Origin: Tetracentron sinense
Taxonomy: Eukaryota > Streptophyta > Magnoliopsida > Trochodendrales > Trochodendraceae
Direction of reading: 5' to 3'
Length of the DNA: 64,000 nt
Assembly: GCA_015143295.1 (NCBI GenBank)
Contig: CM026565.1
Span: 25,180,052 to 25,244,051, forward strand
Shown: piece after piece, positions 5,576-45,059 of the stretch
How positions within the stretch are numbered: the first letter of the stretch is position 1
Layout of the letters: the number at the start of each line of letters is the position of its first letter
Translations under genes and position numbers: made by a program
Notes under the pieces: model-generated
The model's input: the letters and a program-made list of their open reading frames with translations, nothing else
Databases searched by the model: none
What the model was told of the DNA's origin: nothing

Positions 5576-6807
5576 AAGAGCAAGACGGTTTTGGTCTTGC
5601 TAGAGCAAGACCAAATCCCATCCCAATTAGAAGACACCCAAAGTCACTGGATCTCCCAAATCCACTGCAACCTTGGGGGCAAAATATCACTCTAAGATTA
5701 GGTTTGATTTTACTACAAGGAAGATAAAAAGCAAGGAAGAATCTTCAAATGCTCTCTTATATCTCTTTCCAATCACACATTGCCCCCAGAAAGTAGGGAT
5801 CAAATGACCACCTGATTTTCCTCCAAATCGGAGGAAGACCATAGGATAAGAGGTCCTGGATCGGAGGATCCCAAATAAAATTAAATAAACATGATTCCGC
5901 TCCTTGACTGTGGATCAATTTCTGTTCTTATTTATACATGAGAAATCTAGAAAGCTACAAAGAGAACATTTAGTTATGAGTAAAGTACAATAAAAAATAA
6001 TTAATTCATGGGGATAGAACGGCATTATCCCTTGCACAATGGGAGACTTCAATTATTTTTAAGAAAGACTATCGGAGCATAGAGGAGTGCTATCCTAGTC
6101 GCATTTACTTCAAAAGTTTCTATGGACGCAAGGTAAGGCTTATCATGTGGACATGTTTGACATTTTAACACATTACAAAAAATGAAAAAAACAGAAAATT
6201 TATGACAATTGTAGCCACCAAGTTGCATATGTGGAAAACTTGCGACTGGGGCTAGCAAAATCCTTGGAGCATATTTAAGTTCCTTTGATTTATTTATATA
6301 AATAATAATTTATCTTGATATTTTTGTTGAGCCGTGCTAACCCTGCTTTTAGGGATACTTTCAGCCAAATACCAACACCTATCCTTGCTTTAAGCCAAAA
6401 ACCAATATTTGTCCTTACTTTTACATGTGTTGGTTTTGGGGTGAGTATGGCTAGCATGCCTGATTTATGTTTGTTCCATTTGCATAGTAGCTTTTATGTT
6501 TGTTCCACTTGCATAATAGCTAACTTCTGTGAGGGAATAGAGAATTGTTCCTTGGGAGGGATGCCAAACAGACCCTAAGTTACTAACCCACAACAAAACC
6601 CATTTCTAGAACACGGATCAAAGAAGACCCAGATCAACCCTCTAATGTCACAATGCCATTATTAAGAGTAACAATTATCGTTGTTAAAACCATGATCAAA
6701 AAAGTTGGATCTGACCCACCAAAAGTACTCTCATTTCTATTCTTAGCATCACATTTCTAGCATTATTGCAAAGCCAGCCTAGATCCATTGATGAACTTTT
6801 GTATTAA
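5576..6807. other. Intergenic spacer, no gene seen
   Basis: AT-rich, with stops in all frames and no recognisable domain. About 6345-6500 holds short direct repeats (AGCCAAATACCAACACC / AGCCAAAAACCAATATT; TTTATGTTTGTTCCA twice) of unknown meaning. Confidence 0.4.
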
Positions 6808-7156
6808 GGTGGCGTTTGTTACCACTAGTCTAAAAGAAGTGCTTATTTGAAATTATGCTTAGTTGGACTTTAGATTGTTAAGTTGAAGGTTAATTGCATG
6901 TCTACATTTTAGAGATTTTAGGGGTAAAATCCTCTACTTTAAGAAGTAGCTGCATGTCTACATTTAGAGATTCTAGGGGTAAAAACCTCTACTTTAAAAA
7001 ATAGGTATGGAGCTACTTTTTAAAGTAGAGGTTTTTACCCCTAAAATCTCTAAAATGTAGAATGCAATTAACCTTCAACTTAACAATCTAAAATCCAACT
7101 AAGCATAATTTTCAAATAAGCACTTCTTTTTATACTTAGTGTTAGCAAACGCCACC
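6808..7156. mobile_element. Tourist-like (PIF/Harbinger) foldback MITE
   Basis: 349-bp near-perfect palindrome starting GGTGGCGTTTGTTACCACTA and ending with its inverted form. It is flanked by the 3-bp duplication TAA (6805-6807 and 7157-7159). The long arms carry AGAGATTTTAGGGGTAAAA on both sides of a short loop region. It lies about 0.5 kb beyond the aminopeptidase stop codon. Confidence 0.8.
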
Positions 7157-7661
7157 TAAGTCTTCTTTAAGAAAAAGATAGTGTTGCAGAGAGGAGGTTG
7201 GGTTCTTAATTTGCAGTTCTGTAATACAATGTTTGAGAAAACACCATTTATTGAACTTCTATATACCACAAAGTGGATCAATTTCTAAACTATTCAAGTA
7301 ATTAAAATCATTTTTCTTTTCTTTCACAGGAAATCCTATCCAACTAAATTCCATACCTTTCTCATTTTTCTCTCAATTTTTTCAAATCGAAATTAAGTAT
7401 ACCATTTTTTTTTAATAAACGACTCAACACGTGAGGCATCCAACTGAGAATCATCAATGATAGTCACATATCCAAACTAATGAATTACATGAAAATCATT
7501 AAATAGTCTATATTCATTGTAATAAACTCAGAACCATACCTTTTTTTCTTTCTTTCTCTTCAATCACATTTTATTCATATCAACTGGATCTCATTGCACC
7601 ACATAACCCAATTGAGCTTTCTTTCACCTCCCATTTTTCGAACAGTATGTTTCCACTTGAA

Positions 7662-15863: not shown

Positions 15864-17638
15864 GGGTAAATTACACTCACCTCTTTTTGCGGTTGGGTGA
15901 AATATCAAAAACCTCCTCTTTAATTTTCGAACTTACACTACCCTCCCCTCAACATTGGTTATCCGTAACAATTATATATCCATTCCCTTAAATTTACCGT
16001 TACTTTATGGATGGACTTTGATGATGTTATCATTTAAACATTTTAAAATAACTAAATTACTATTTTTCAACACAAGGTTAGTTAATATCAACTTACGGTT
16101 AATATATAGTTCCAAAATCAAGTATATATATACATATATATTTTTTTCCCCCCCTAAAAACCAATGTTGGATAGATGATCTCTAAGGGTGAGTGAATCTT
16201 AACCATAGTTAGTGGGTATTAAAAAGGACACATGGCGACTTATAAAAATCCTTTAACTATGGTTAAACATAATTAACCTAAGATTAAAAATTTATTTTTT
16301 TCTTAAAAGCAAAGTGAGATGGATTAATCCTAGGAGTGAGTGAATCTTAAGCACAATTAGTGAGTGTTAAAGGGGACACGAGGTGGCTTGTAGAGCCCCT
16401 TTTAATTGTGGTTAAGTATAATCAACCTAAGGTTTTTTTTCCTTCTAAAAATCAAGATTAAATGGATGAATCCTAGGGGTGAATGAATTTTAACCCTAGT
16501 TAGTGAGCATTAAAGGGGACACGTGGCGGCTTGTAGAGCTCATTTTAATTGTGGTTAAGCATAAGCAACCTAAGGTTTTTTTTTTTTTCTAAAAACCAAG
16601 ATTTGACAGATGAAACCTAAATAACCAGAGCGTAAAGTGGGTGCGAGAGCGTCAGATTTCAATTTAGGATATCGGGAGCGCCGATATATATACATAAAAT
16701 ATATATTGATGTTCTTGAAAATTACTTGTAAATGTAAATATATCTTTTTTAGTTTTTTAAACTTTAAGAGAAAATTGATACAATCATTCATAATTCAAAT
16801 TTTTCATCACAACAAACAAGATGACTATTGAATTATTAAATGTATCATTCTAAATTCAATTACAAGATCACTAATAATTAACAAATCTTAGATGAATCTT
16901 GTACCCTATAAAGAAAAATAACAAAATACACTTCATTTCACATGAAAAATTAGGATAAAAATAAAACTTTACACAAAAACCATACCTTTAAGTGAGAGCG
17001 AGATTTACAAAAGTTAAAATCGAGCTCCTGAGGCGAAAGCGAGGTTTGAGAGTGGGAGCGGGTAGCAGGTTAGGAGGTTTGAGTTATTAAGGGATGAACC
17101 CTAGGGGTGAGTGAGTTTTAACCATAGTTAGTGGGTGTTGAAAGGGACATGTGACTGCTTATAGAGATCCTTTAATTGTGGTTAAACATAATTAATCTAA
17201 GATTAATATTTTTATAATTTTTTCTATTAGCCAAGGTTAGATTAATGAATTCTATAGATGAATGAATCTTAACCACAGTTAGTGGGTGTTAAAAGGGACA
17301 CATGGCGGCTTGTAGAGCCCTCTTTAATTGCGATTAAGCTTAACCAACCTAAGGTTATTTTTTCCTAAAACTAAGGTTAGATGGATATACCCTAGGGGTG
17401 AGTAAATCTTAATCATAGTTAGTAGGTATTAAAAGGGACATGTGGCGACTTAGGAGTTTATGTTTTTCTTTGGTTGAGCTTTCAAACGGTAAATACTTGT
17501 TTCCTCGGAAAAATGATAATTTTAGTTAACAATGTTAATATTAAGAGTCTGACAAGGGAGGGCAACGTAATTTCATAAACTAGATGAGAGATTTCTGAAA
17601 TTTCACCAAACCTCAAGGGAGGTGAGTGTAATTTACCC
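15864..17638. mobile_element. DNA transposon with GGGTAAATTACACTCACC termini, carrying 142-bp repeats
   Basis: Inverted ends of about 55 bp, imperfect: the left begins GGGTAAATTACACTCACCTC and the right ends GGTGAGTGTAATTTACCC. There is no transposase. The interior is mostly two blocks of a ~142-bp repeat, separated by an AT-rich stretch (16620-17085). No target duplication can be fixed. A lone end of the same type is at 59488-59547, so the family is dispersed. Confidence 0.6.
16166..17460 (+). repeat. Tandem ~142-bp repeat, about six units in two blocks
   Basis: Unit core: CCTAGGGGTGAGTGAATCTT, then TTAACCAYAGTTA, a run like AAAGGGACACRTGGCG, then TAATTGTGGTTAA and AACCTAAGGTT plus a T-run. 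Units start near 16171, 16318, 16461, 17091, 17240 and 17379 (spacing about 140-149). The pair TTAACCACAGTTA / TAACTGTGGTTAA makes a ~13-bp dyad in each unit. The same unit recurs at 26322, 34085, 37840, 52740, 61050, 61640 and 62530, in both orientations. Confidence 0.8.
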
Positions 17639-17649
17639 TTATATTTATG

Positions 17650-18130
17650 TACTTTGTGGTGCACATGCAATGCACGTGAGAGGGCTTTGGATTTGCTCAG
17701 GCATCCACACTTCATCCGACACCTGACGATAAAAAGGGGAGAGATATCAAGGGGGGAGAAGTCAGAATCATTGGGAGAAAATGAAATGACTTCTCCCCCT
17801 TTTTATCACAAGGTGTTGGATGAAGTGTGGATGCCCGAGTGCCCAACTCAAGCGTCCACTAGAGCAAATCCGAATCTAAAGGAGAGAGAGAAGAGAGGGG
17901 GGGGGGGGGGGGGAGGGAAGGGGAGAGAAACTGGGAAGAGGAACCTTAGTGAAGGTATTTTGGGAAAAAAATTAAGAAATATTTTGGGTATAAAAACTTG
18001 AAGGACATTTTGTATTAAAAAAAATTATGAGAGACAATTGGTTATAAAAATAAGACCTAAGGATATTTTGGGAACCAAAAAACTTCAGGGGCATTTTGGG
18101 TATAACAAAAAAAAGGGGACAGCTGGAGCC
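17650..18130 (+). repeat. CACGTGAGAGAG-headed minisatellite, copy 1, split by a MULE-like MITE
   Basis: The head TGCACGTGAGAG lies near 17671. A foldback of about 195 bp (17683-17877, starting GGCTTTGGATTTGCTC) interrupts it. The purine-rich tract GAGAGAAACTGGGAAGAGGA, with a 17-G run at 17897-17913, then continues. Next come degenerate ~35-45-bp units built on GGACATTTTGGGTATAAAA. Related copies lie at 35850, 38330 (inverted) and 63620. Confidence 0.6.
17683..17877. mobile_element. MULE-like foldback MITE
   Basis: Near-palindrome: GGCATCCACACTTCATCC on the left and GGATGAAGTGTGGATGCC on the right, around the GATAAAAAGGGGAGA / CTCCCC core shared with 3180-3503. The left end GGCTTTGGATT equals the first 11 bp of the large MULE. 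Target duplication not clear. Confidence 0.55.
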
Positions 18131-20390: not shown

Positions 20391-21362
20391 TTGGAGCTTG
20401 GCTTTGGATTGTCTCTGGCGAAGCCAGAAAGCTTATCTCGGGGTTCCATAGAGCGTGTGACGCGTGGCCACGTTTTGGGCGCCAAACCGAAAACAGAAGA
20501 CGGAAGCCTGGGATCGTTAACGTTTGTTAACGTTTCAAAAAAATAATTTTTTATTCCTTTTGTTTTTGGGAATAGCGTACTCTGGTTGCCATGCTCAGAA
20601 TGAATGAACTGATGGGATTTTGGTCTTGGCTTTGGACTTGCCCGAGCTCAGGCGACCTTCTTCTTCAGTTCGAGGGTTTCCGGTAAGAAGGGTCAGTTCT
20701 TTTTGGCTTTGGATTGTTACCCGAAACGTCTTCACCTCTCCGGTAACCAAGGTTTTTGGCAACCAAGGTTTCGGCATTTGAGGATTTTTGGTTTTTTTGG
20801 TCACAATACAGACCAAAACCCCCAAATAAGCTTCCTTCTCCTTCAGGCTTCCTTCTACTTGTCATTCGGGTGCGGTTCCGGTTCAGTCCTCACGAGATAA
20901 GCTATTCGAGGGTTTCCGGTCACGTTTCTTCTCGGGGTCAGTTCAGTTCGAGGGTAGACGGCAACCAAGGGAACTTTCCGGCGATTGCATTTTTTTCCAA
21001 CCCCAAAAACCAGAGGCTGATTGAACCGGGTATCATACTTCACTTCTGCTACCCTGTAAATTTTTTTTCAAGGTTTTTTTGCCATGATTTACCTTATTTC
21101 CTTCATTCTTTTCTATTTGAGGGTTTGATTTGGGGTTTTTTTATCTGGGGGTTTTGACTTGGGGTTTGAAGGAAGGTTTCTTGTGCAAAATTGTTGGTGT
21201 TCTTTGGAATGTTGTAAATCGTTGAGAAAATAATGCAATGTTGTAAATCGCATTGGCTGTCCATTTTTTTTTTTTTTCCCATTTTTTCATCGAGCAAACT
21301 TTATCCTCTTAGAGGATCTGAGATTGTTATTTCAATATGATAAGGTTAATTTGTTGCATAGA

Positions 21363-21704
21363 GATAGCAGAGCACTAACTACATATATGGACAATATCCA
21401 GTTTCTAAAGTGGTTATGAGTGCCTACACAAGGATTCTTGCAAAAAAGTTCCCAACTTTCTGCATAAATTGTGTCTGTCCTGGTTTTGTCAAGACAGACA
21501 TTAATTTCAATACTGGGTATTTAACTGTTGAAGAAGGTGCAGAAAATCCTGTGAAATTGGCTTTATTGCCTGATGGGGGGCCTTCTGGTCTCTTCTTCGA
21601 TCGGACCGGAGTAACAACCTTTTGATGCGTGAGAAAATTGAACACGGTGGAAGCTCATCTGCTATCTTGCATTGTGTCTATATATGCAGTTAGTGCTCTG
21701 CTAC
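21363..21704. repeat. 27-bp inverted repeats flanking the captured dehydrogenase piece
   Basis: AGCAGAGCACTAACT followed by a TATATA-rich tail at about 21363-21391 is repeated in inverted form at 21678-21704 (three mismatches). The pair encloses the 234-bp dehydrogenase piece, so it looks like a small foldback element nested inside the MULE arm. The other arm carries the same structure (about 29556-29897). Confidence 0.7.
21392..21625 (+). pseudogene. Captured 3' exon piece of a short-chain dehydrogenase/reductase gene (left TIR)
   Basis: Open frame to the stop, with the stretches [45 protein letters not shown] and [14 protein letters not shown]. These match the C-terminal part of plant (+)-neomenthol dehydrogenase / salutaridine reductase-like SDRs. 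The piece begins at the catalytic Tyr-x-x-x-Lys motif and lacks the Rossmann NADPH-binding half, so it cannot be a working enzyme. It is the kind of gene piece Pack-MULEs acquire. An identical arrangement lies in the right TIR. Confidence 0.88.
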
Positions 21705-22273
21705 TTGCATTGTGTCTGTCTTATATAAGCTAATTATATATTCAGGTTTGTCCTTGTGTGACTAGTAAAGACTAAATTTCATTGTTATGCATGATATAGC
21801 CCAAACTGAATTTGGGTCCACTTTATCTGTTTATTTTGTTTTGAGTGATAGTACCTTGAGGAAAATTCAACACTAGTCTTGCCAATGCCACCGAAAACAT
21901 AGAGAATATTACCTCCATAATTAGTCTTCAGGACCTCAGATTTAGTAGTTAAGTGGAGTAAGAGATTATAATCTGTTTCATTTGTTATCCCCTTAACTTT
22001 TTCGGAATTAGAGAATAATTATGCTAAATTTAGAGATTTTTTCGTCATAATTTTTCACCAAATATAGCAGATCAAGATAAGTTTGTCTCTTCAAATGCTT
22101 TCCATTCGATTTAGCCGTCATTAATATTTTGTTTCCTTTAAATCGTGTTATTTGAATTTGGATTACAGAGTTGAAAATAAATGGGTGATATACTATATCT
22201 AATATGATCTTACCAGAGTCTCAAGTTCAGGGAAGAGCACAATACGCATTTCAGAGAGGCCGAATACATTGAC

Positions 22274-25200
22274 ATGGATCATAATATATTGGGTAATCCT
22301 TGTGAAGAAGATAATAGTGGATTACAAGTATCACGCAGGTTATCATTTGAGACAACAGATGATGACTGTAACTATGCTAGTGGATCTGGGTACAGCAAAA
22401 AATGTTCGACAAATGAAGATGGTACACCAAATCCAGAAATTGGAATGGAATTTGAGTCAGAGGATCAGGCATATGATTTCTACAATGAATATGGAAGAAA
22501 GGCTGGCTTTAGTATTCGAAAGGATTGGAAAAATAAAGATAAATCTGGTGTTGTGAGACGTAGAAAACTTTGTTGTTCGCGAGAAGGTCTTAAGAAAGAA
22601 GATAAACGAACAAACATTGAGAACCAGCGAGATCCTACTAGATGTGATTGTAAGGCTCACATTGTAATTGCTCTGCAGCCAAATGAACATTATAAGATAA
22701 TTCAGAGTCAACTAGAGCACAACCATCATTGTACACCAATGAAGTCTTACATGTTTAGGTCACGGAGGAGAGTAGCCAAGGCTCAAGCTGTTGAAGCGAA
22801 TATGGCAAGTAGTGTTGGTATAAACTCGAAGAAGACATATGATCTTATGACCGCAGAAGTGGGAGGGCCCGAAAATGTTGGATTTTTGCACATGGACATT
22901 AAAAATTATATTCGTTCTAGACGGATGAGGTCAATGGAAATGGGAGATGCAGGAGCAATATTACAGTATTTTCAACTGATGGTTGTAGAAGATCCAGGGT
23001 TTGTATATTCCTTACAACTTGATGCCGAAGATCAAATAACAAACTTTTTTTGGGCTGACTCTAGAATGGTGAATGACTACAATGCATTTGGTGATGTGCT
23101 TGTTTTTGATACAACTTACAGGACAAATAATAATGCACGACCATTTGCACCATTTGTAGGAGTTAATCATCATAAGCAGTCAATTTTATTTGGAGCGGCA
23201 TTAATGTATGATGAAACAACTGCATCTTTCGAGTGGGTGTTTAGGGCTTTTTTGGCTGCAATGTCTAATAAACAACCGAAAACCATCCTTACGGATCAAG
23301 ACAAGGCAATGGCCAATGCAATCTGTTCAGTTTTACCAGATACTCATCATCGCATCTGTGTGTGGCATATGTACCAGAATGCAAGAAAGCATCTTAGTCA
23401 TGCATTTAGTAGTTCAAAGTCTTTCGTTGTAGATTTCAACAAGTTAATATATGACTATGATGATGAAGAAGATTTTTTGAACGGGTGGGAGAACATGTTA
23501 AAAACATACAATCTAAGAGGGAATACATGGTTACAAAAGTTGTTTAGTGAAAAGGAGAAATGGGCTTTGGTGTATGGAAGGAGTACATTTTGCGCGGATA
23601 TGAAAAGCACTCAAAGAAGTGAAAGTGTGAATAGTGTGTTGAGACAGTATTTAAATAGCACTCATTACTTGTTGGAATTTTTTGAACATTTCGAGAGTGT
23701 AGTAATTGACAGAAGGAATGCGGAATTACGAGCCGACTTCAAGATGACACAAAGTGAAGTAGAAGTTTTTGCGAATATTCCATTGTTGATTCGTGCAAGA
23801 AATTTCTACACCCCTAAAATATTTAAATTGTTTCAAAAGGAATATCGTATGGGAATGACTTATCGTGTCAAATTGTCTGTCCAGTGTGATGCCACAAACA
23901 CATTTATAGTAAGATGCCCGGAGAAAAAAAGAGAATACACAGTTACATGTGACAAAAGTGGATTCACTATCCATTGTAGCTATAAAAATTTTGAATTCAC
24001 TGGAATTTTGTGTGGTCATGCATTGCAAGTATTGTTCAGAATGGAAGTGGAGGAGATCCCAGATCAATACATGTTGAAGAGATGGAGTAAACATGCAAAA
24101 GATGCAAGTTCAAGCATTGGCACTAGAAGTTCATTATTTGTGGGGGATGTAACGTTGTCAAAGCGTTATAAGGTCTTAAGTCGCTTTTCTATGAAATTGA
24201 ATACTAGGGCTGCTGAAAATGATCAATCCTTTAAAATTGCTATGGAAGGTTTATGTGCAACCACGTCAAATGTTGATAATTTTTTCAGTAAATTATCCAT
24301 AAATGAGACTCAAAACCTTGAATCAGAAGAGATGGTTAATGAAACACCCAAGGAAAATGATGACAATGAGATATCCAATCGGGTGAAGGGACTAGCAAAA
24401 AACGATCAAGGACATAAGGGAAGAGCGAGGATCCGGGGTTGTTTAGAGAAGAGGAAAAAAACAAGAGGGTCATCTAAGGTGCCTATCTACACCTTCCCAC
24501 CCACTGGTCCCATTATGCGTTCCATGCCGACATGTCCAAGTGATCAAGGAATGCAGGTACTTAAATTTGGTTTGCATTATAAATCAAAGTTTATTTATTG
24601 CCAAGTTTAAGTTTTTATTAATTTTAATTTTGATGTGCTAAATAGGGGTTCCAACAGAATGTTGGACCAAGTCAAATTATGAACCAACAAGAGCTAAGCT
24701 TGAATCAAGTGAACCCGTACATGCACCAACAAGCTCAGCCGAATCAAGTGAACCCTTACATGTACCAAGAAGCTCAGCTGAATCAAGTGAACCCGTACAT
24801 GCACCAACAAGCCCAGTTCAATCAAGTTCCACCATATACGTACCAACAGTTTCAAGGCCCTCCAATGTCTTCTTTAATGTATGGGCAGCCACAACTATAC
24901 CACAACCATACCATGTATCAGCATTTGCAACAATCCATCTATGGGTCATCTCAGGTAACCGTTACTTAATTATGTTGATCAATGTGTGTTGCAATATTTA
25001 GGATTAGAAATAACTTTTGCACCATCTATTAGCAGACAATTTATCCATACGTGTGTTGTTTAGTAATCTTTGCAAACCAGTTATTAATGTACTGTATGGA
25101 AGGACTAGCAAAATCTTCAGCTTCTATTGGTTTACAATCTGTAAAGTGTGTGCAGTACCGGCCATTGGGTTTTAACTTGCATTATAGAAAGTAGAAAATA

Positions 25201-26005
25201 AAAGAAGCCTTGGATAATGTCCTCAATAATCTGGAACCTCCAGGAGCTCAATCAAATCCGTGAGAGCAAAGATAAAACACATTGTTCTTATTGCGTTTGT
25301 GCATAAGGATATATTTAACTATTACATCAGATATTCATCTGTTTGGTGTAATAAATAGATTCTAGATGTATACTATTGATGAAGGACATGGAACATTTGA
25401 TATTCGTATTAGTATTATCCTTTGTGATTGTTATATTATGCTTGTACTCCCCTCAGAATCTGAGTGGAATTGAATTAGGGGGGCTGCTAGCTTCATTCAT
25501 GGTGTTCCTTCCATTTTAATTAAATGAAGGGCACAGATCTGTTAAAATTGGGATTTGCTGATATTTTTTACCCTCGTTGCATTTCTTATAACTAGATTTT
25601 CTTTAACTTGGCTAACACCTGCATGAAAGTTGAAAAGTAATCAGTAATTGTTGATGCCATAGGAATTGCATTTCTGCTGTTACACACATGTTCATGTCAT
25701 TGTAACAGAGCCACTTTTTCTTATAATCATTACCAAATATGTTCATGTCGTTGTAACAAAGCCATTTGGTCATCTCCTTATATGTTGTCTTTATATGTTG
25801 CAGGAATCGCCACTTGGTGTGGGGAATAGCTCACAGGGAGAGTGTCAAGACCTTACCACTAAAATGACAAATAGGTATCCACAACTCATATTTTTTTTAA
25901 TTAATATATGCAAACTCCTTTATTTGATGTTTCGAAGTAATCATAGTGAAAATTTACGGTGACAGCTATGTTGCATGTTTGTCGTTTTGCAGTTATGATA
26001 ATTGA
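22274..26005 (+). CDS. FAR1-related (MULE) transposase, four exons
   Basis: Transposase of the element, related to the domesticated regulators FHY3/FAR1 and to maize Jittery. Exons 22274-24556, 24646-24954, 25804-25874, 25993-26005 give 891 residues; the first two are firm, the last two inferred. FAR1 N-terminal DNA-binding domain at about 57-165 (FYNEYGRKAGFSIRKDW; CDCKAH; HNHHC). MULE transposase domain at about 270-470 with D279 (VLVFDTTYRTN), D341 (ILTDQDKA), CVWH at 362-365 and E450 (STQRSESVNS). SWIM finger at about 561-590, where the usual CxC reads CSY. Exon 2 encodes four tandem 13-residue Gln-rich units (type NQVNPYMHQQAQP). No internal stop was found. It lies inside TIRs, so it is a mobile gene rather than a host FRS gene. 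Confidence 0.9.
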
Positions 26006-26019
26006 ATTATTGCTCAAAG

Positions 26020-26127
26020 AAATGCCTAGTAGGCCAGCTGAATCCAGGGCTATGGCATGGGAGAAGGATTATGAGTTTGGGGCTGAGTCTGCTGAAGGGG
26101 AGGAAGATGAATGTGATGAGTACTAGG
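26020..26127 (+). other. Coding-like tract downstream of the transposase gene, unassigned
   Basis: A frame reading KEMPSRPAESRAMAWEKDYE and then FGAESAEGEEDECDEY before a stop (26125-26127) has protein-like composition. It lies 15 bp past the inferred transposase stop, in another frame. It would be joined if exon 3 ended in phase 1 (possible weak donors near 25816 or 25842), giving an acidic C-terminus; or it is a separate captured exon. Family not recognised. Confidence 0.35.
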
Positions 26128-26321
26128 TAGATGTGGTATGGGTTTTCAGGTGATTTATGCTTTTGCAGGGCATCTAAATGAATCTGACATTGCTACAGAT
26201 TAACCTTTTAAAGTATTAGTCCTAGTTTTGAAACTTACACATTTATGAACATGCCTGTTTTATGTGTCAGCTTTAGAGAAATTGTACTTATTTTCATATA
26301 TCAATCAGGAAAGCCATGGTT

Positions 26322-26380
26322 AGATTGCTTAACCCTAGGGGTGAGTGAATCCTAACCACGGTTGATGGGTGGTAAAAAGG
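26322..26380 (+). repeat. Fragment of the 142-bp repeat inside the MULE
   Basis: Reads GGTTAGATTGCTTAACCCTA then GGGGTGAGTGAATCCTAACC and a GGTGGTAAAAAGGG tail, matching the dispersed unit described at 16166-17460. Confidence 0.75.
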
Positions 26381-27722
26381 GGGTTTGGCAAGTTGACCCT
26401 GGGGTTCGTTTTCCATTTCCCTTTTAAGTTATGAACTTGTGCACAATAGCTTAAGAATAGCAGGTAAACTTTTCAGGTGATTTATGTGTAGTATAGCAGA
26501 CTTGCTTTCCCTGCAAGCTCCTATGAAAAGGAAAATGGAAACTCCAATAACATAAGACATGGAAGCATTATGAGTTTTTGCTGGTGACTACCATTTCAGA
26601 AATGATTATTAATAACATTCAATTTTATATATTTTGTTCAAATGAAAACTCACCCTAAATGGAAAACCAGAAGCCACACCACACTTTAATTACCATGTAT
26701 AATATGTTCTGTTTCTTATGGGTCACGGTATAATACGATCTTACAAGCACAGAAAGCAAAAGGAGGAACCCACAAAACAAGCTGTTGCTTTGTTTTCTTC
26801 TAATACATCAAGCAAAAGCAAACTCTCTTCCAACATCCCCAACCACATGCAGAATATGTGATCCTAAGAACAGCAAATGAGAAAAGATCATTCATCCATC
26901 ATTCCAATTCTTCACATTGTTTGTGGGAGCAATAACTTTGGAAGTGGCTCACATCATTAAGTTGTCCAAGACTTCGACTTGTATCAGACACCCTCTAGGT
27001 AGGATGGTATAGGTATATTATGAATGCAGCATTGAGAGAATAAGACTGGCAGTGTAAACTAAAGGTGTTTTACTCAACCTTGTATATTGAAACACAAAAC
27101 ATCTTCCCATGGACTATTCAAGGCAGGTGGAACCGTGGAAGTGGAGGAACACCAATGTTCCATATGCTCAAGTGCTCGACTAGAATTCACTAGAGATCTT
27201 TGTATAATTCTTTAGAGGAAGCAAAACCAAGTTCCAGAATTTGAGTTATGGTAAACGGGATTAAAAGATACTGAATAATTAGAGCTTACATGCACTCTCT
27301 CGTCTGTTTTGACATCCCCTTTGAGTTAGGAACCTTGAGGGAGTGTGACACTTTATATGGGAATGCACTGACATTAGCCCAGCCGAGGTGGGACTAAACA
27401 TTGCTGTTTATTTTTTATTTTTTTGTAAACAGCTTAATACACCAAGCAGTGTGTTAAGATGATCTAGTAGGAAAAGTCCTTTGATGTTCACAAGTTTTCA
27501 AGGTAAAATATAAAAGTAGTTGACACCATTGTGAGAACTTGGGAATCTGCTACTAAGGCTAGTACCAAGTTTTCAAGGTAACATAACAATACATGTAGCC
27601 TAGTACCTGTGAACCCTGTATTTACAATTGTCATAAGATAGTGAAATTTACAATTGTCATAAGATAGTGAAATTTACATAACAAAAGTGGGTTCAGATGT
27701 TCCAAATTATATGTTGCATGTC
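26381..27722. other. Spacer between the convergent MULE genes
   Basis: No gene seen. Contains a 27-bp direct repeat in tandem at about 27623-27676 (ACAATTGTCATAAGATAGTG) close to the 3' end of the GRF gene. Presumably holds both 3' UTRs and polyadenylation signals. Confidence 0.5.
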
Positions 27723-28140
27723 TTACTTTAGAAGCATAATAATTACAATTGTCCAAATAACCATTAAAAATCCCATGATTATACATAGTAGACTACATCC
27801 ACAGGCCGCACAAAAGAAAAGCCGACGATCTCTTTTGCGTGCATTGAGTAATTGATGTACTGTAAGATCTATTTCACCTTCAGTGGAATGGGGTTCTTCA
27901 TAGTCTTCCACCCAAATGAATGAATTGTGATGATCCTAATGAAATTTAAATATTATTAGTTCATGATTTTTGATATAATAATGAGATATTATACATATTA
28001 ATCAACACATAATATACCTATACCTGACCAAGTGGGCACCGGAAAAACCAACGGCCGTAGTTTTTTTTCGTTTTAGCCATGAATAATTTCATGTATCCCC
28101 TATTACAAAAACAAATGGGAGCTTGCGTATTTCCTGTCAT
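27723..28140 (-). CDS. Small GRF-type zinc-finger protein with C-terminal membrane anchor, MULE-borne
   Basis: Two exons, 28140-28024 and 27935-27723, joined in phase 0 (donor CAG/GTATAG, acceptor CATTAG), give 109 residues. Residues 10-50 form a GRF-like finger: C10-x-C12, GRWFFRCP with C35, then SFIWVEDY; the usual last Cys before the aromatic stretch is missing and His-His lies nearby. A basic stretch (NARKRDRR) precedes a Cys-rich hydrophobic segment at about 84-108 that should span a membrane. Similar small plant proteins are annotated as At4g04775-like. It is transcribed toward the transposase gene inside the same TIRs. A 3' splice site directly before the ATG (TTTTTTTTCAG) suggests a 5' UTR intron or another upstream exon. 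Function in transposition is unknown. Confidence 0.8.
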
Positions 28141-29336
28141 GCCTGAAAAAAAATTTAAAAACATCAATTCTTTCTTTCAAGTAGCTGTAAATAAAAAAAG
28201 TATGCAAAACGATAACAACGTCTATCAAAATCACACACAAAGCTGACTTGGTCATATTTTGACTTTAGAACCATAAAACATGATCAAAGATGACTTTACA
28301 CACCCTGAAGAATTCTACTATACACCTTATTCCCCCAAATAAGGGAACCGAATAATAAAAACCCTCCAAATCTGGTCAAGTTAAGTTTTAAACTTCAATT
28401 AATGTTTGCAGGTTTTAGGAGGTCTTCTACTACACATTTTTTCCCTTTGGTACATCACAAACTTCCCTTTTTTGGTCTCTATTCAATTTCTCTATATTTA
28501 GTTGGATTGTTCTATTTTTGGTGGGACTTTCTATTCCATTTAATGTATGTAGCCTAACACAATAATAAGTTATTGTCTTGGTTAGAACGGGATTTATGCT
28601 AACTGTTATACCCATCTGCTTTGGGGAAGAAGGGGGAGATTTGGGGGGTATTTTTCTCATCTCCACATTATCCGCTTAAGCCATCCACCTAAAACCTTCC
28701 ACTAAACCATTGACAACTAGCACAACATTAAGGATCATGACAATCTCAGAACACTCATTTCCTTGATTAGACCAATACTTATTAGCTTTGGCCTCTTACC
28801 GTAATAGGTTATTACTTCTTTTTGACTGTAATAGTGCTAAGGATCTGATTAGGCTAGCTAATAATATATAACGAGGGTCACCTGAGAAATTGGAAATATA
28901 CTTCCCACCAAAATATGATGTTGCCATCTCTAAGAGATTTATACTTCCCACCAAAATATGATTTTTAAAAGGGGATGTTTATGCCAATGATTTTAATTAA
29001 AAGTTATAGATATTAGTCCTACATACACTTCGAGTGATTATTTTAGATGTTAGTCCTACATACGCACAGTGAGGAAAACATTGACAACAGTATATGTTTC
29101 TATAAAATTATGAATGTCTTAGTAATCACAAAATGTAAGTTACATCATATGGCTTCAAAAATAAAATCATGTTATGGAGATTGAAACCCTTGTAACATGA
29201 ACAAATGAGTAATGGTTTCAGATTATATATAAAAAAAAAAACCCTACTCCTGCGGCCCTGCCATATTAAGACTTAGTGAAGCTCAAAACAACAGTAGAAA
29301 ACGTTTATGCTCGATCAAAACACGATTAGTGTTACT
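28141..29336. other. Upstream region of the GRF gene inside the MULE
   Basis: AT-rich; no domain recognised. A GATTTATACTTCCCACCAAAATATGAT-type direct repeat lies at about 28897-28960, and a TTAGTCCTACATAC-type one at about 29013-29065. Likely promoter and 5' UTR intron of the GRF gene. Confidence 0.4.
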
Positions 29337-30858
29337 TAATTATGGAGGTAATATTCTCTATGTTTTCGGTGGCATTGGCAAGACTAGTGTTGAATTTTCC
29401 TCAAGGTACTATCACTCAAAACAAAATAAACAGATAAAGTGGACCCAAATTCAGTTTGGGCTATATCATGCATAACAATGAAATTTAGTCTTTACTAGTC
29501 ACACAAGGACAAACCTGAATATATAATTAGCTTATATAGGACAGACACAATGCAAGTAGCAGAGCACTAACTGCATATATAGACACAATGCAAGATAGCA
29601 GATGAGCTTCCACCGTGTTCAATTTTCTCACGCATCAAAAGGTTGTTACTCCGGTCCGATCGAAGAAGAGACCAGAAGGCCCCCCATCAGGCAATAAAGC
29701 CAATTTCACAGGATTTTCTGCACCTTCTTCAACAGTTAAATACCTAGTATTGAAATTAATGTCTGTCTTGACAAAACCAGGACAGACACAATTTATGCAG
29801 AAAGTTGGGAACTTTTTTGCAAGAATCCTTGTGTAGGCACTCATAACCACTTTAGAAACCGGATATTGTCCATATATGTAGTTAGTGCTCTGCTATCTCT
29901 ATGCAACAAATTAACCTTATCATATTGAAATAACAATCTCAGATCCTCTAAGAGGATAAAGTTTGCTCGATGAAAAAATGGGAAAAAAAAAAAATGGACA
30001 GCCAATGCGATTTACAACATTGCATTATTTTCTCAACGATTTACAACATTCCAAAGAACACCAACAATTTTGCACAAGAAACCTTCCTTCAAACCCCAAG
30101 TCAAAACCCCCAGATAAAAAAACCCTAAATCAAACCCTCAAATAGAAAAGAATGAAGGAAATAAGGTAAATCATGGCAAAAAAACCTTGAAAAAAAATTT
30201 ACAGGGTAGCAAAAGTGAAGTATGATACCCGGTTCAGTCAGCCTCTGGTTTTTGGGGTTGGAAAAAAATGCAATCGCCGGAAAGTTCCCTTGGTTTCCGT
30301 CTACCCTCGAACTGAACTGACCCCGAGAAGAAACATGACCGGAAACCCTTGAATAGCTTATCTCGTGAGGACTGAACCGGAACCGCACCCGAATGACAAG
30401 TAGAAGGAAGCCTGAAGGAGAAGGAAGCTTATTTGGGGGTTTTGGTCTGTATTGTGACCAAAAAAACCAAAAATCCTCAAATGCCGAAACCTTGGTTGCC
30501 AAAAACCTTGGTTACCGGAGAGGTGAAGACGTTTCGGGTAACAATCCAAAGCCAAAAAGAACTGACCCTTCTTACCGGAAACCCTCGAACTGAAGAAGAA
30601 GGTCGCCTGAGCTCGGGCAAGTCCAAAGCCAAGACCAAAATCCCATCAGTTCATTCATTCTGAGCATGGCAACCAGAGTACGCTATTCCCAAAAACAAAA
30701 GGAATAAAAAATTATTTTTTTGAAACGTTAACAAACGTTAACGATCCCAGGCTTCCGTCTTCTGTTTTCGGTTTGGCGCCCAAAACGTGGCCACGCGTCA
30801 CACGCTCTATGGAACCCCGAGATAAGCTTTCTGGCTTCGCCAGAGACAATCCAAAGCC
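29337..30858 (-). repeat. Right terminal inverted repeat of the MULE
   Basis: 1522 bp, the reverse complement of 20400-21923 with scattered single-base differences (for example one that changes Gly to Arg in the captured dehydrogenase piece). It ends at CCAAAGCC (30851-30858), directly before the target duplication. Confidence 0.92.
29635..29868 (-). pseudogene. Captured short-chain dehydrogenase piece (right TIR)
   Basis: Inverted duplicate of 21392-21625 carried by the other MULE arm; still open, with Gly replaced by Arg in NTGYLTVEE. Transcripts crossing either arm would contain sense or antisense sequence to a host SDR gene family. Confidence 0.88.
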
Positions 30859-30867
30859 TTGGAGCTC

Positions 30868-33857: not shown

Positions 33858-34655
33858 GGGGCAGAGCTAGGAATTTTTCTTTGAGGGGGCCGAATTACAT
33901 ATCAAGAAAATTAATGGGATTGGGATATGGACTATGGGACCTTAGGGGTTCGGGGCTATAGCCCCCGGTTTTGTTTTTAAGTAGTAGGTCCATCGTGGTC
34001 CTAAAATTTGTTAATGTTTCATTCCAAAAAGGGGACCAGTAATAAGAAAAAGTGAAAAACATGGGTCAGTTTTCTTTGGTTCTTACCCACTTTTTTAATA
34101 CTCACTTGTTAGTGGTTAAGATTCACTCACCCCTAGGGTTCATCTATTTAACCTTGGTTTTTTTAAAAATAAATAAAAAAAATATTAAGTTGGTTAACTA
34201 AGGTTAAAGGGGATGAAATAGGAAGACATTGATTATGTAGTCAAATGCAAGGTGGGCTAATCACTACACCTACATATATTTTTTTTATTATGGAGATTGT
34301 TTTTCACACACGTTCTATTCCCATGCTTGACACATGTCCCATTTAACACCCATTAACTGTGGTTAAGATTCACTCACCCCTAGGGTATATATATCTACCC
34401 TTAGTTTTTATTTTAAAAAAATTAACTCCTAAAATAATAAATCTTAACTAGGGTTAAAAGAGACACATAAAGAATCAATCTTTTTATATTACATATATCA
34501 AAAAAATGTAAAATATTTTTTAGGGGGGCCACTCTATACAAAATTTATATATTAAGTATTTTATTTAAAAAAATTATAAGTACAAATAATTAAAACTCCC
34601 AAAATTTTGTGGGGGGGGGGGGGGGGGGGGGGGGATGGCCCCCCCGCACCGCCCC
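33858..34655. mobile_element. 798-bp insertion with a perfect 11-bp target duplication
   Basis: TTCATATGTTA flanks both sides (33847-33857 and 34656-34666). Short GC-rich ends GGGGCAGAGC and GCACCGCCCC form weak inverted termini. The interior carries two inverted 142-bp repeat fragments (about 34080-34145 and 34325-34395) and a run of 24 G at 34611-34634. No coding sequence. The 9-11-bp duplication points to a MULE-like or unclassified DNA element; another element with a similar end starts at about 60903. Confidence 0.6.
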
Positions 34656-39784: not shown

Positions 39785-42700
39785 ATGTCGGGAGCTCCTA
39801 GAGTCAGATCGATGAATGTAGCAGATTCAGAGTTGCGGCCAGTTCTTGGACCTGCTGGGAACAAGGCAAGATCGTTACATACGCGGAAACCTTTGAGAAA
39901 GGTGGAGAAAACGCCAGAGATTGCTGCGGAGGAGAAGAAAGCTCCGGCATCTCCCGTTGCTGCTTCGCCGCCTCTGCTGCATTCTGTCAGCGATCCTTCA
40001 GTTTTGCAGCTGTTGCACTCCAGCTTGTCGCTCAATGCATCTTGTTCATCTGATGCTTCTTCTGATTCTTCATTTCATAGTCGAGCTTCTACTGGAAGGA
40101 TAACTCGAACAAGTTGTACAACAAGCCGAAGGAAGCAATGTGTTTCAAAGCCAAAGAATGTTGTTTCTGATAGTGAATTGGCATCTCCACCTGATACCTC
40201 ACCAGCCAAAAAGAGGTGTTCTTGGGTGACGCCAAATGCTGGTACTTTCTCGTGTCTTGATTTCGGAGTAATTAGTTGTTCTTGTGAAGATTTTAATTTG
40301 TACATTATTTCTAACCATAACTTTTGAATTTGAATTTTCAAATCGATAATTCTATAAACTAGTTACATCTAGCCCCACCAGTATCTTCATGTTCATTGTT
40401 TTCTACAAAATAAACAACAATGGATGCAATAGAAACAACTATTGGTGCTGTCATGATGCATTCTCCCATGTCACAACTTTGATTTATTTGTAAAATAATG
40501 AAATTAAAGATATCCAAATAATGTTGCAAGTAGAAATTAGAACACGAAATGAAGCATTTATAAGACATGAATATCACTACAAGAAGTAAAGTGCATCAGT
40601 TACTACTAATTATTCAAGTGCTGAATTCCAAGTAAGATGAAAAGAAAAATACTAACGAGAATTATAGGGAAGGTATTAAGTCCCAACCATTAAACAATTC
40701 AACCCAAAAAATTACCCACAAATAGAAAAGAGTGAATGATAGAGAAGAACTGCTGAATCAAACTGTATCGTCTGAAGGAAGAACATAAACGGAATAGAGA
40801 GAGAGAGAGAGAGAGAGAGTTCTCCTTTCACTTTGAAGATCCTTTTATAGCCCACACCCTCAACTAAATCCGTACTTACCCTTATTTCACACAAGAATAG
40901 TGATATAAATTAGTTTGTTTTGGGTGGCTCTCTATAGTGCAGGTGAAGCAGTAGCCTATGTGGCGATTGAACTGCACTGGCATTGGATTGATCATTAAAC
41001 TCTTGACCAGAAAGGTTATGGGCAACCGACTCCGGCAGATTTTAGTTAGGTTCATCATGGCGAAGTTCTTTGACCAGTTGTTTATTTCACATGGAAGCCA
41101 GCCCTTGTATGTTATATATATATATATATATATATATATCTGAGGTTTCTGATTGACTTAACTTTAACCAGAAATAGCCAGTCCCATGGAACCAAGCCCT
41201 CCCGAACCGCATAAAAGGAAATTCTTTGTGAACCAGTTCCAGATAAAGAATCTTGAATAGAAGAAGTGCGATCGATACCTCTGCATCGTAATCAACAAAA
41301 TAGGCATACGAATCTTCGTAATCTTTGATTTGAATCCACTGAGGCATCTGTATCCCTATCCCCATCCTCAGAAACTGAATCTAGGGCCGAGGGGAATTTC
41401 TTCTAGTGAGGGGAATCTTTTCAGCTTCAATCGATTGGAAGCACTTCCTTCTATGCCTGCCTCTCTTGGTTGCCTGCTATAGGGCTAGTTAGGGCTAGTT
41501 CTCTTGCCCACTTTGTCGGGCTTAAAGCATAACTTAGCTTTTCACTAACAGAATTGTAAGCATCATTTCATCAAACAAGACTCGGATCGAGGAGCAAAAG
41601 CCCTATAAAAAAATCGAGGAGCAAAAGCCCTTCGGATGAACAATCCAATCCTACCAATGAGGATTGTGAAACGTCGGTTTCTCTAGTAAGACATATAGCC
41701 CAAATTTAGAATTATGAGAATTGCTAGGACCGGGCACCTTTGTTGATTTCGAATCCTAGGATCTTGAAACTTACCTGAGGGGGAATCTTCTTGTATTCAA
41801 TTTTTTTGGGGAAATATGGTGTCATTTATGGGCTTATCAATGCTCCTCATAATATTGATGAGAAAATCTAGTGTCTTTTGCTAGGAAGGCCCCTCATCCA
41901 CCATCTGGGATGGTTCTGCATATCAGGCACAACAGAACAAGTTTTATCATCAGTCTGGGCCATCCAAGTATCAGACACCCTAAATTTATGGACTTTCTTT
42001 CTGACCATTCCCCCAGTTTATAATTATCCATGATTAAGATTTTGGTTAGATGTTTGAAATTGTTGACAAGTGCAATTTTCTTGAATTTTTTACGTCCAAT
42101 GACCCAACACCTGGAAGGTCTGGATTGATGAGAACAGGTGCATCATGAACGGGTCATGTTCCCAAGACAGTTTATGGGTTTTCAGGGAAAGACCAGTTTC
42201 CTGCTGTTTTTACTCGATACTAGTTTTGCCTTGAAAACGATCGGCGATCGCTACAAACACTATGTCTCATTCTCATTCTCATTCTATAGTAAGCTTGTTC
42301 TAGTTGTCTTCAGTTCTGGAGCACTTCACCACCATATTCTGTTCAGTTCCAGTCATATCTTTTAATGAAATCAAATTTAAGTTTTATATGCTCAATAGTT
42401 TTCATTTGTCCAAAACAGATCCATGTTATGCTGCTTTCCATGACGAAGAATGGGGAGTTCCAGTCCATGATGATAAGTATGTGTTCACAACCATGTTTGC
42501 ATTATTTCTCCCTACCCAATTCTGGACTTCCAATCCCAAGATAAAAGTACATTTAACAGGGTTATTAGTGTGCCTGATATTCTTGACATGCAGGAAATTG
42601 TTTGAGTTCCTTGTCCTATCAGGTGCTTTGGCCGAACTTACATGGCCTGCCATTATCAGCAAAAGGCACATGTTTAGGTAATGATTGTACTCTCAATGAC

Positions 42701-45059
42701 TAAAATCCCTGTTTCCTAATCATTTTATCAACAGACTCTTATTCTAAACCGTATGCCATTCTCTTTTAACTATTATTTGATGGGTTTCACTTGGCAGAGC
42801 TGGAAGGATCTGGTGCCTATCCTCCTTGTGTTCCCATTCATTGTATTTCTCTTTTGATATGTGTCTGTACACAGGGAAGTCTTTTTCGATTTTGATCCAG
42901 CTGCTGTCATGAAATTGAAGGAAAAGAAGATAACAGCACCAGGGAGCCCCGCCTGCTCCCTATTAACGGAGCCAAAGCTGCGTGCCATCATTGAGAATGC
43001 TCGTCAAATATCCAAGGTAGATTCTCATTTTTCATTTGTGAAACTTACAATCCATAACTGCGATCGAAGAAACACTTCTGCATTGTATGGTGAATAAAAT
43101 ACTATTTATGTCATGAAGAATACCTTGATTAGGACAAACTGATTTCATTTTTTTATCGGTAAAATCAGAGCTAACTGATGATGGTACTATTTGTCAAACG
43201 ACCTCTGCTTTACATGTGGACGAGTCCAAGTACTGAGCACATAAATCCGATGGATGATGATATTATTGTTGTGGTCTTTTAAAGAGGCCACGTAATCAGT
43301 TCCTTAGAGTGGTTAAAATTTCTCTTGAGGTTGGGGCTTGCCATGTTTTCCTTTTTGTGACCAATCACTTGAATGTCATAGACTGGATGTTTAGTTATGA
43401 CCTGATTGGGTAGATCAGTGGAAAGTCAATGAATGATGGGTGGAAATTAATTGAATGATGTGTCCTGGGCCTCCTGCCATCCTTTACCCACGAATGACCT
43501 AGTTAGTTCAAATTGAAAGTGTACCCTTCATTGTCTGACCTAAATATTTCTCTCATCTCAAAAGTGACATACAGGTGTACCATATTATTCCTCTTATCTA
43601 AGTTGGAAAATCGTGTGTTGATTCCATAATCCATATATCTGGGTTGAAAACATGTCTTCTCCCATTAACTACTAAGTCACTAGCCACTAGGCATTAGCCC
43701 ACTTAATATGATTAAGGGGTCCTTGGTGTCACCCATCACTTGAAGTGACTGTCACCCACCAAGCCACCACACAAGAATTTTGAAAGAGGTGGGGTGGGGC
43801 GGAAGAAAAAGGCTACTGGATCCAACCTTTTTGAAAAGCTATAAAATGATATCAGGATAATCCTATTAACATTCTGAGAAACTCATAAAATCATTAAAAA
43901 AAACCTAAATTACTTTAAAAAAACCAGTCATTAAAAAAAAAAATTCCTATAATCACTATGGTAAAACACTAACAATGGGCTAAGCAAACTTTATGATTTT
44001 AAAAAAAACAAATGAGTCATATGAACAAAATTTACCAAATATAATAAGCATATATAGCCAAACCAAGTAGAATTGTAGAGTAGTCAATTAAATTACTAAA
44101 TAGCAAATAACAAATTAACAAGAAGTCATGAGAAGCGACTCAAGGACAAAGTAGCAAACACAACAATTACACAATTAATGAAAATATAAAGAACTAATAA
44201 ACGATATGTATCACCCGTTTCGTATCAATATATCGCCCGTTTAGTATCGGTTTCGGAAATTTTTATTTCCATTCTCTAAAAGCCTAAAATCATTATGGTA
44301 AAACCCTGAAATCATTACCATATGACTCTAAATCTCCTAATGCTCTAAAATCAGTGTATAAAAACACTTCAAGGAAACCCTAAAATAACTTTGCTACCAA
44401 TCCTTTTTCGTTGCCATTCCCCATCACGTTCCCCTTGCTGATGAATTGCAGTTAAAGAGATGAGAGTTTCTCTGAATCAATAAAGGAGGGGAAGTCAGTG
44501 GGAGGAGGGGAGCGGGGAATCAAAACCATTTACAAGGGTTAATAGTTTTGCAAATTTCCATTAAAAAAATGCGGTAGGTTACAGGCAAAGCTGGGGCAAT
44601 GGGTTAACAATTTATTTTAAAGAAAGGCGTAATTCAACAGTTCTTGCTAAAATTCTTGCTACTACTTTTCTGTGGGCTTTACTGATGCAGATCATAGATG
44701 AGTTTGGCACATTTGACAAGTATATCTGGAGCTTTGTGAACCACAAGCCTATTGTTAGCAGATTCCGATATCCCCGCCAGGTTCCGGTGAAGACTCCAAA
44801 AGCAGATGTTATAAGCAAAGACCTGGTGAGAAGAGGGTTCCGGAGCGTGGGGCCAACTGTCATCTACTCATTCATGCAGGTGGCTGGAATAACAAATGAT
44901 CATCTCATCAATTGCTTCAGATTTGAGGAGTGCATAGATGCAGCAGCAGGGAGCAAAGAGGATGGCATCCAGACTAAGGCTGAAGAGAGGAAGGCCAAGG
45001 ACATGATTGACTCGGGATTAGTAACAGCTATGGATGATTTGAGTTTCTCGGAGGAATGA
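39785..45059 (+). CDS. DNA-3-methyladenine glycosylase I (Tag family), five exons
   Basis: Base-excision repair enzyme family that removes 3-methyladenine from alkylated DNA. Exons 39785-40241, 42419-42476, 42594-42677, 42875-43016, 44691-45059 join in phase and give 369 residues. The start is MSGAPRVRSMNVA, as in Arabidopsis relatives; upstream in-frame codons lack an ATG. Residues 1-145 are Ser-rich with basic stretches, a plant-type N-extension. The Tag domain follows: RCSWV, FHDEEWGVPVHDDK, LFEFLVLSGALAELTW, KYIWSFVNHKP, RRGFRSVGPTVIYSFMQ, TNDHLINCFRFEEC. Zinc ligands expected from E. coli Tag (Cys, His, His, Cys) are present in these motifs. The position of E. coli Glu38 (LEG) reads Ser (LSG). 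Introns 1 (2.2 kb) and 4 (1.7 kb) are long. Confidence 0.93.
40796..40819 (+). repeat. (GA)n microsatellite in glycosylase intron 1
   Basis: About 12 GA units. A (TA)n tract of similar length lies at about 41115-41139 in the same intron. Confidence 0.9.
41340..41720. other. Possible organelle-derived insert in glycosylase intron 1
   Basis: Composition changes to less AT-rich, with phrases like GGGCTAGTTAGGGCTAGTTC and a tandem pair ATCGAGGAGCAAAAGCCC (about 41588 and 41617). They remind me of plant mitochondrial spacer DNA. No gene identified; the assignment is by style only. Confidence 0.25.
43017..44690. other. Glycosylase intron 4
   Basis: 1.67 kb. A GTGTCACCCATCACTTGAAG-type stretch near 43730 and AT-rich sequence from 43860 to 44230 look TE-derived, but no termini could be fixed. 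No gene seen. Confidence 0.4.

Follow-up and report, generated by a model that had tools for sequence, protein, structure and literature searches.

A FAR1-type Mutator-like element with 1.5-kb inverted arms and a putative GRF-like second gene in Tetracentron sinense

The FHY3/FAR1 light-signalling regulators of plants descend from FAR1-type transposases of Mutator-like elements (MULEs). With an element of this type that has defined ends and a related miniature element (MITE), one can test which DNA was bound by the ancestral FAR1 finger and whether the binding site of the plant regulators derives from transposon ends. The FHY3/FAR1/FRS transcription factors share with the transposase described here the order FAR1 finger, MULE core and SWIM, the last of these degenerate here (PMC6000157); however, they are domesticated, and domesticated transposases generally lack terminal inverted repeats (TIRs) and target-site duplications (TSDs) (PMC2528002).

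Within a 64,000-nt stretch of Tetracentron sinense DNA (the window), positions 20400–30858 are a Mutator-like DNA transposon 10.5 kb in length. Maize Jittery, a member of clade IV in PMC3903597, is active and carries a FAR1 domain (PMC9569675); like the present element, it combines an N-terminal FAR1 domain, a MULE core, long TIRs and a 9-bp TSD (PMC9569675, PMC3903597). In contrast, it measures 3.9 kb, its TIRs span ~200 bp, and the published account gives it one gene (PMC9168764) and no mudrB homologue. A survey of plant group 36 records TIRs of 39–292 bp or none and one ORF, a descriptive range rather than a definition, which the 1.52-kb TIRs and two reading frames found here do not match; the present arms exceed every TIR among the survey rows compared (PMC6446971).

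The citrus element CitMule likewise has a FAR1 + MULE + SWIM transposase, encoded by a 5-exon gene whose first exon is the largest; three of its four genome copies show a perfect 9-bp TSD, and its movement is documented in ARR, a natural mutant of citrus. It differs in its size of 6.9 kb and its short, degenerate TIRs, and a second gene is not described in the passages concerned (PMC4334395). Jitvine-1 and Jitvine-2, Jittery-like families of grapevine, also comprise large elements (11.9 and 14.4 kb), and some copies have a possibly functional transposase and EST support; the table that reports them gives neither TIR nor TSD length, and in some Jittery-like families the extra gene encodes a ULP protease, as opposed to the GRF-like product here (PMC2528002). 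Another FAR1-related element with TIRs, the maize FRS5-like MULE, sits in a mutant allele of ys3, but has 130-bp TIRs and 8-bp direct repeats (PMC5826256). Evidence of movement is thus already in print for three FAR1-type MULEs—Jittery (PMC9569675), CitMule (PMC4334395) and the maize FRS5-like element (PMC5826256)—and the rarity claimed in an earlier note on this DNA was overstated.

MuDR and Abermu resemble the present element in holding a transposase gene and an oppositely oriented second gene between their TIRs. Their transposase, however, is of the MURA type, these accounts do not describe the mudrB and ORFR products as GRF fingers, and the Hvu_Abermu TIRs measure 138–145 bp against 1.5 kb here (PMC9168764, PMC3276141). 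We regard the locus as a well-preserved element of an already known transposon kind, set apart by arms longer than those of the survey rows compared and by a modelled GRF-like second gene that has no MULE precedent in the literature searched; together, these raise the question of whether some FAR1-branch MULEs have an accessory protein, as in MuDR.

Inverted arms and insertion site

The boundaries of the element are as follows.

20391–20399, no strand: left TSD, TTGGAGCTT
20400–21923, plus strand: left TIR of 1524 bp, starting GGCTTTGGATTG
29337–30858, minus strand: right TIR of 1522 bp, self-BLAST partner of the left arm
30859–30867, no strand: right TSD, TTGGAGCTC

Self-BLAST of the window, with matches of at least 60 bp and E ≤1e-8 listed, paired 20400–21923 with 30858–29337 at 99.278% identity across 1524 columns; no listed match is longer. 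The 1.52-kb arms reported earlier as agreeing almost throughout are thereby borne out. The flanking 9-mers agree at eight of nine bases on recount, as had also been stated; when 400,000 pairs of 9-mers were drawn at random from the window, a fraction of 2.7e-4 agreed to this degree.

Coding MULEs have been defined by two inverted TIRs more than 75% identical and 2–30 kb apart, a TSD of 8–11 bp (with up to two mismatches allowed at 9 bp or longer), and transposase homology between the TIRs (PMC3903597). Here, the TIRs are 99.28% identical and ~7.4 kb apart, the TSD has one mismatch in 9 bp, and transposase homology is present, as identified by Pfam instead of the BLAST set of that paper. Arms by themselves would look alike in an FRS gene flanked by an inverted segmental duplication. 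Yet the 8/9 TSD falls exactly at the arm ends, and a separate element in the window combines the same ends with a perfect TSD; because of the TSD we reject this non-transposon origin, which we find scarcely credible. Instead, the locus very probably belongs to the FAR1/Jittery branch of MULEs, as a cut-and-paste transposon working as proposed below.

Transposase gene and state of preservation

The left gene was modelled with four coding exons.

22274–24556, plus strand: coding exon 1, with the FAR1 DNA-binding domain, MULE catalytic domain and degenerate SWIM (the unspliced frame reaches 24610)
24646–24954, plus strand: modelled coding exon 2, a Q/N/Y-rich tail with 39-bp repeats
25804–25874, plus strand: modelled coding exon 3
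25993–26005, plus strand: modelled coding exon 4, including the stop codon

The frame at 22274–24610 runs through 778 codons with neither stop nor frameshift and matches Pfam FAR1 (PF03101; 79.1 bits, cut-off 28.1) and MULE (PF10551; 111.3 bits), in agreement with the uninterrupted FAR1-type frame described before. The residues D279, D341 and E450 were found as claimed; this DDE triad, assigned from position and spacing alone, is spaced 62/109, compared with 62/110 in the Jittery transposase JITA (PMC9569675). Our model also makes splicing of the transposase gene probable. A sequence search of the PDB with the frame returned no match at E ≤1, and an AlphaFold run without alignment gave an unusable structure (pLDDT 31.8).

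The surveyed plant Jittery subgroup carries SWIM or CCHC (PMC6446971), and SWIM is reported as present in Jittery (PMC9569675), whereas the finger here is degenerate: its match to PF04434 scores 16.8 bits, below the cut-off of 19.6, with CxY where CxC is expected. The element is likely to be complete, as the earlier note had it, but with a sub-threshold SWIM finger and one altered zinc-ligand position.

The tyrosine at this expected cysteine position would also fit an element of the same type that is now decaying, its arms gene-converted, its transposase dead and its insertion old. Such a state, compatible with the transposon reading, strikes us as possible if doubtful. The mismatch in the TSD points the same way, and so does the distribution of arm differences: the nine substitutions and one 2-bp gap are confined to 20908–21721, leaving the outer 508 bp and the inner 202 bp clean, a pattern that gene conversion could give, and transitions, as expected in methylated DNA, account for eight of the nine substitutions. 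An open frame of 778 codons and arms 99.3% alike across 1.5 kb, on the other hand, argue against decay.

LTRs are copied from one template at insertion, whereas the inverted arms of DNA transposons are not; the 99.3% identity consequently dates the last arm homogenisation, not the insertion. Assuming 1.5e-8 to 2.5e-9 substitutions per site and year, nine substitutions in 1522 sites correspond to ~0.2–1.2 Myr, a figure we do not take as the insertion age. The single TSD mismatch suggests that some time has passed since insertion, and the description of the element as recently moved is not established.

Second gene and the arms as a shared leader

Three predicted features relate to the right-hand gene and its possible leader.

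28024–28140, minus strand: modelled exon 1 of the second gene, 39 codons, with the start of a GRF-like zinc finger
27723–27935, minus strand: modelled exon 2, with the end of the finger, a C-terminal hydrophobic helix and the stop codon
20683–20688, plus strand, mirrored at 30575: best-scoring splice donor in the TIR, CCG/GTAAGA, at which a shared leader exon may end

The spliced second gene of the earlier note can be reproduced as a model: its reading frame occupies 28140–27723 on the minus strand, convergent with the transposase gene. Its predicted product of 109 aa would consist of a GRF-like zinc finger and a C-terminal hydrophobic helix. The match to Pfam GRF (PF06839; 24.3 bits, E 3.4e-5) runs across the predicted splice junction and lies under the gathering cut-off of 25.9, and we therefore call the protein GRF-like rather than a GRF member. 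A PDB sequence search retrieved the GRF repeats of NEIL3 (whole-sequence E 1.5e-6), the single stretches being weak (E 0.017 and 0.22) and the last cysteine of the finger lacking a clear counterpart. Arms, TSD, the Pfam FAR1 and MULE matches and this modelled gene together support a two-gene FAR1-type MULE with 1.5-kb TIRs.

GRF fingers bind single-stranded DNA. By analogy, the second gene may encode an accessory transposition protein with this activity, or it may be a captured host gene. We found no report of a GRF-like gene inside a MULE in the literature searched; two papers joining GRF zinc finger, transposable element and plant concern wheat miRNA targets and peanut methylation (the latter with twelve differentially methylated GRF zinc finger genes), and neither connects GRF with transposons in the passages concerned. 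Capture could extend to both genes if the locus were a large Pack-MULE, driven by another transposase, whose arms enclose a domesticated FRS gene together with a GRF-like gene of the host. MULEs do capture genes, the extra reverse ORFs of Abermu may be host-derived (PMC9168764), and FRS genes have the identical domain order (PMC6000157). Nevertheless, we judge this very unlikely: it needs the coincidental capture of a transposase gene that is open, belongs to the right superfamily, lies in a MuDR-like position and retains the DDE triad, a point that is not decisive given that domesticated FRS proteins might keep the triad too.

Splice sites were scored with hand-set weights and are predictions. 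The top arm donor is identical for both genes. For the second gene, the two highest-scoring acceptors ahead of the ATG would place the exon start 2 or 44 bases before that codon; for the transposase gene, the highest acceptor score in the stretch from the left arm to the ATG is only a moderate 7.5, at 22169. Weak sites occur in two modelled introns (acceptor 4.8; donor 5.0) and in the intron of the second gene (acceptor 4.2). No Pfam family at E ≤10 was found for a 133-codon TIR frame, taken as leader sequence, or for a coding-like open stretch of 34 aa at ~26022–26123. For a transposon of the FAR1/Jittery branch, we propose that each arm supplies its gene with a promoter and leader exon; both genes would then be transcribed inward from identical regulatory sequence. 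In a bolder version, which we consider unlikely, the GRF-like zinc-finger/membrane-helix gene would be native to a lineage of FAR1-branch MULEs and encode a second transposition protein equivalent in function to mudrB. This protein might, for instance, bind single-stranded ends during excision or repair, and the identical 1.5-kb arms would express it together with the transposase; the CACGCGT-bearing arms would also show what the FHY3/FAR1 ancestor bound.

Element ends and related sequences

Terminal features of the element recur in a small element of the same window.

20414–20428, no strand: terminal hairpin TCTGGC-GAA-GCCAGA, common to the small element at 3180–3503
20626–20713, plus strand: end motif TTGGCTTTGGA, repeated subterminally at 20626 and 20703, where the transposase may bind
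3180–3503, no strand: palindromic, non-autonomous MITE of 324 bp; its ends are related to those of the large element, and CAAAAATTA flanks it as a perfect 9-bp TSD at 3171–3179 and 3504–3512

The MITE and the large element have 25 consecutive terminal bases in common, a moderate excess over the longest match of 21 among 124 interior 60-mers. As the MITE joins these terminal bases to a perfect 9-bp duplication, such ends have inserted more than once. The FAR1 finger may bind the element ends at the end motif and its subterminal copies, and the RNase-H-like core would then excise the element and reinsert it, duplicating 9 bp of the target. The transposase of this element or of a sister might have moved 3180–3503 and similar small palindromic derivatives in trans.

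Searches of the rest of the window revealed no second copy of either gene, the best tblastn hits (E 1.1 for the transposase, 0.08 for the second gene) being taken as chance. Pattern searches with transposase exon 1 gave 31 matches in viral_contigs and 35 in genome_contigs, none confirmed, and the 34-base element end had no match in viral_contigs; neither collection consists of plant genomes, and the lack of hits is uninformative about plants. No RNA family reached E ≤1 in 24600–30858, and the sole gathering match in the window, a 20-nt HIV-1_SL4 at 16638–16657, was judged to be chance. A candidate second MITE at ~17683, starting GGCTTTGGATT, was dropped, its best TSD of 7/9 being unconvincing.

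The arms also carry CACGCGT, 60 bp from each end; this heptamer is one base off the FHY3/FAR1 site CACGCGC.

Arms and boundaries of the element

Self-comparison of the window yielded a single outstanding inverted repeat, the arms of which (20400–21923 against 30858–29337) are 99.278% identical over 1524 columns and form the ends of a Mutator-like element (MULE) of 10,459 bp that begins with GGCT and ends with AGCC. An earlier note, written from the sequence alone, had described 1.5-kb arms agreeing almost throughout and eight of nine matching flanking bases, and both descriptions held. The adjoining 9-mers, TTGGAGCTT and TTGGAGCTC, are identical at 8/9 positions, all eight consecutive, a match this good being found in a fraction of 2.7e-4 of 400,000 random 9-mer pairs from the window. 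As the single mismatch is the base adjoining the left arm, the flanks could also represent an 8-bp duplication and one extra base; a 9-bp target-site duplication (TSD) with one later change is the simpler reading.

The arms differ by nine substitutions, eight of them transitions, and one 2-bp gap. Every difference lies within 20908–21721, leaving the outer 508 bp and the inner 202 bp identical (post hoc, the chance that ten independent events would spare the outer 508 bp is 0.017). This pattern is consistent with arms that were first homogenised and then decayed as methylated DNA. Insertion of a DNA transposon does not generate its two arms from a single template, so arm identity does not date that event, and the claim that the element had recently moved is therefore not established.

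Further copies of the end motif GGCTTTGGA lie at 20628 and 20705 and, mirrored, at 30630 and 30553; six of its seven occurrences in the window fall in the arms. Some 60 bp from its end, each arm also has CACGCGT (20466, minus strand; 30792, plus strand), one base different from the FHY3/FAR1 site CACGCGC (PMC6000157). Exact CACGCGC has two occurrences in the rest of the window and none in the element, and the arm motif is a lead as a candidate FAR1-type site.

The transposase and GRF-like genes

The uninterrupted FAR1-type frame reported earlier was recovered as 778 codons at 22274–24610, with all four Pfam matches above cut-off (FAR1, 79.1 bits; MULE, 111.3; ZSWIM1-3 RNaseH-like, 46.8; Transposase_mut, 23.2). 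The triad D279, D341 and E450 is present as described, with spacings of 62 and 109; the published triads have 62/110 for the maize Jittery transposase JITA (D337, D399, E509) and 62/99 for TEDA (D318, D380, E479) (PMC9569675). GT-AG introns add exons 24646–24954, 25804–25874 and 25993–26005, giving an 891-aa model; the five-exon gene of CitMule is likewise reported to have its largest exon first (PMC4334395). All splice-site scores used here rest on hand-set weights, and the three modelled introns include one weak acceptor (4.8) and one weak donor (5.0). The SWIM finger scores 16.8 bits in Pfam, below the cut-off of 19.6, and reads His-Cys-Ser-Tyr where a CxC pair is expected. Together with the dependence of target activation by FHY3/FAR1 on conserved SWIM residues (PMC6000157), this suggests that the transposase may be impaired.

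A second spliced gene, also noted before, was modelled as minus-strand exons 28140–28024 and 27935–27723, joined at GT-AG (donor 7.2; weak acceptor, 4.2) and encoding 109 aa. Residues 8–49 match the Pfam GRF zinc finger at E 3.4e-5 (24.3 bits; cut-off 25.9), and since this match spans the splice junction after residue 39, it supports the splice model. A PDB search returned four sequences within E 1: GRF repeats of NEIL3 at 1.5e-6 and 0.009, and two others (0.51, 0.9) taken as chance. Individual stretches of the best NEIL3 match reach just 0.017 and 0.22, and the final finger Cys has no clear counterpart in the alignment. By these matches the product is likely a GRF-like zinc-finger protein; at the C-terminus lies a single, strongly hydrophobic helix (Kyte-Doolittle 2.94 over 19 residues).

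Both genes point inward, the same layout as in MuDR. The arm's top-scoring splice donor, CCG|GTAAGA at 20683 and 30575, is common to both. Upstream of the second ATG, the two best acceptors would start exons 2 and 44 bases before it, and upstream of the transposase ATG, outside the arm, the best acceptor is moderate (7.5 at 22169). These positions lead us to predict that both transcripts may begin in the arms with a common leader.

Comparison with published MULEs

Arms, flanks, Pfam domains and triad uphold the assignment to FAR1-type MULEs. The text of a published survey gives terminal inverted repeats of 14–500 bp overall, and the rows covered (the first rows, then groups 16–50) reach 640 bp in a red alga, 613 bp in Phantom and 447 bp in plants; the 1.52-kb arms lie outside these lengths (PMC6446971). 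The plant Jittery group there has repeats of 39–292 bp or none and one ORF, whereas this element has a second gene (PMC6446971). Its overall size is not new, because large Jittery-like elements are known: grapevine Jitvine-1 and -2 measure 11.9 and 14.4 kb in a listing that gives no repeat length (PMC2528002). Jittery-like MULEs can carry ULP proteases (PMC2528002), and MuDR and Abermu have opposite-orientation second genes of uncertain origin (PMC9168764). Among the matches listed in the open-access literature, none described a MULE with a GRF-type gene, and the papers retrieved for GRF zinc fingers together with plant transposable elements draw no connection between them. Rarity had been overstated, since the literature already contains FAR1-type MULEs for which there is evidence of movement: Jittery, CitMule and an FRS5-like insertion in maize (PMC5826256). 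What goes beyond the earlier note is the probable identity of the second gene, the degenerate SWIM finger, the pattern of arm differences and a related MITE.

A related MITE and other features of the window

Positions 8–32 of the element's end reappear unchanged at the left end of a 324-bp palindrome (3180–3503), the right end of which matches at 23/26 positions. This non-autonomous element, a MITE, folds much better than 100 shuffles (z −9.7) and has CAAAAATTA on both sides, 9/9 identical. Such a flank match is expected in 1.6e-5 of random pairs with fixed boundaries; scanning 32 x 32 boundaries gives about 0.016 chance matches at that rate, a figure that rises somewhat where flanks are A-rich. 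The best boundary pair has GGCC at both ends and agrees with the ends placed by alignment of the two arms. For the 60-nt terminus, the longest exact match in the rest of the window was 25, against ≤21 (median 11) for 124 interior 60-mers and ≤14 for 25 further arm 60-mers. By itself the 25-base match is moderately unusual; what makes it convincing is its position, at the termini of an element whose TSD is perfect. The shared ends and this TSD indicate that the window has received at least two insertions of elements with such ends within its 64 kb.

The MITE core is similar to stretches 5468–5559 and 17733–17807, and a possible further MITE at 17683–17880, lacking a clear TSD, begins with GGCTTTGGATTTGCTC and has a like core. 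The FAR1 transposase and WRKY genes suggest that the window is plant nuclear DNA. Other features are as follows:

6807–7157: near-palindrome of 351 bp, 86.6% self-complementary; likely a further MITE or foldback element
16154–16603, 17092–17452, 26310–26380, 34092–34460, 52714–53089 and 61595–62310: dispersed repeat, each unit about 144 bp long
42304–42678 and 44565–45056, plus strand: methyladenine glycosylase gene exons
46962–47372 and 56528–57253, minus strand: WRKY domain exons
48043–48507, minus strand: zf-RVT domain; probably a non-LTR retrotransposon remnant

Rfam gave no match in 24600–30858 at E up to 1. On the minus strand at 27350–27400, the succession of GTCCCACCTCGGCTGGG and CATATAAAG resembles a plant snRNA-type upstream element and TATA box. 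The dispersed repeat is tandem at 16319–16603 and 61598–62306, and one piece of it lies within the MULE.
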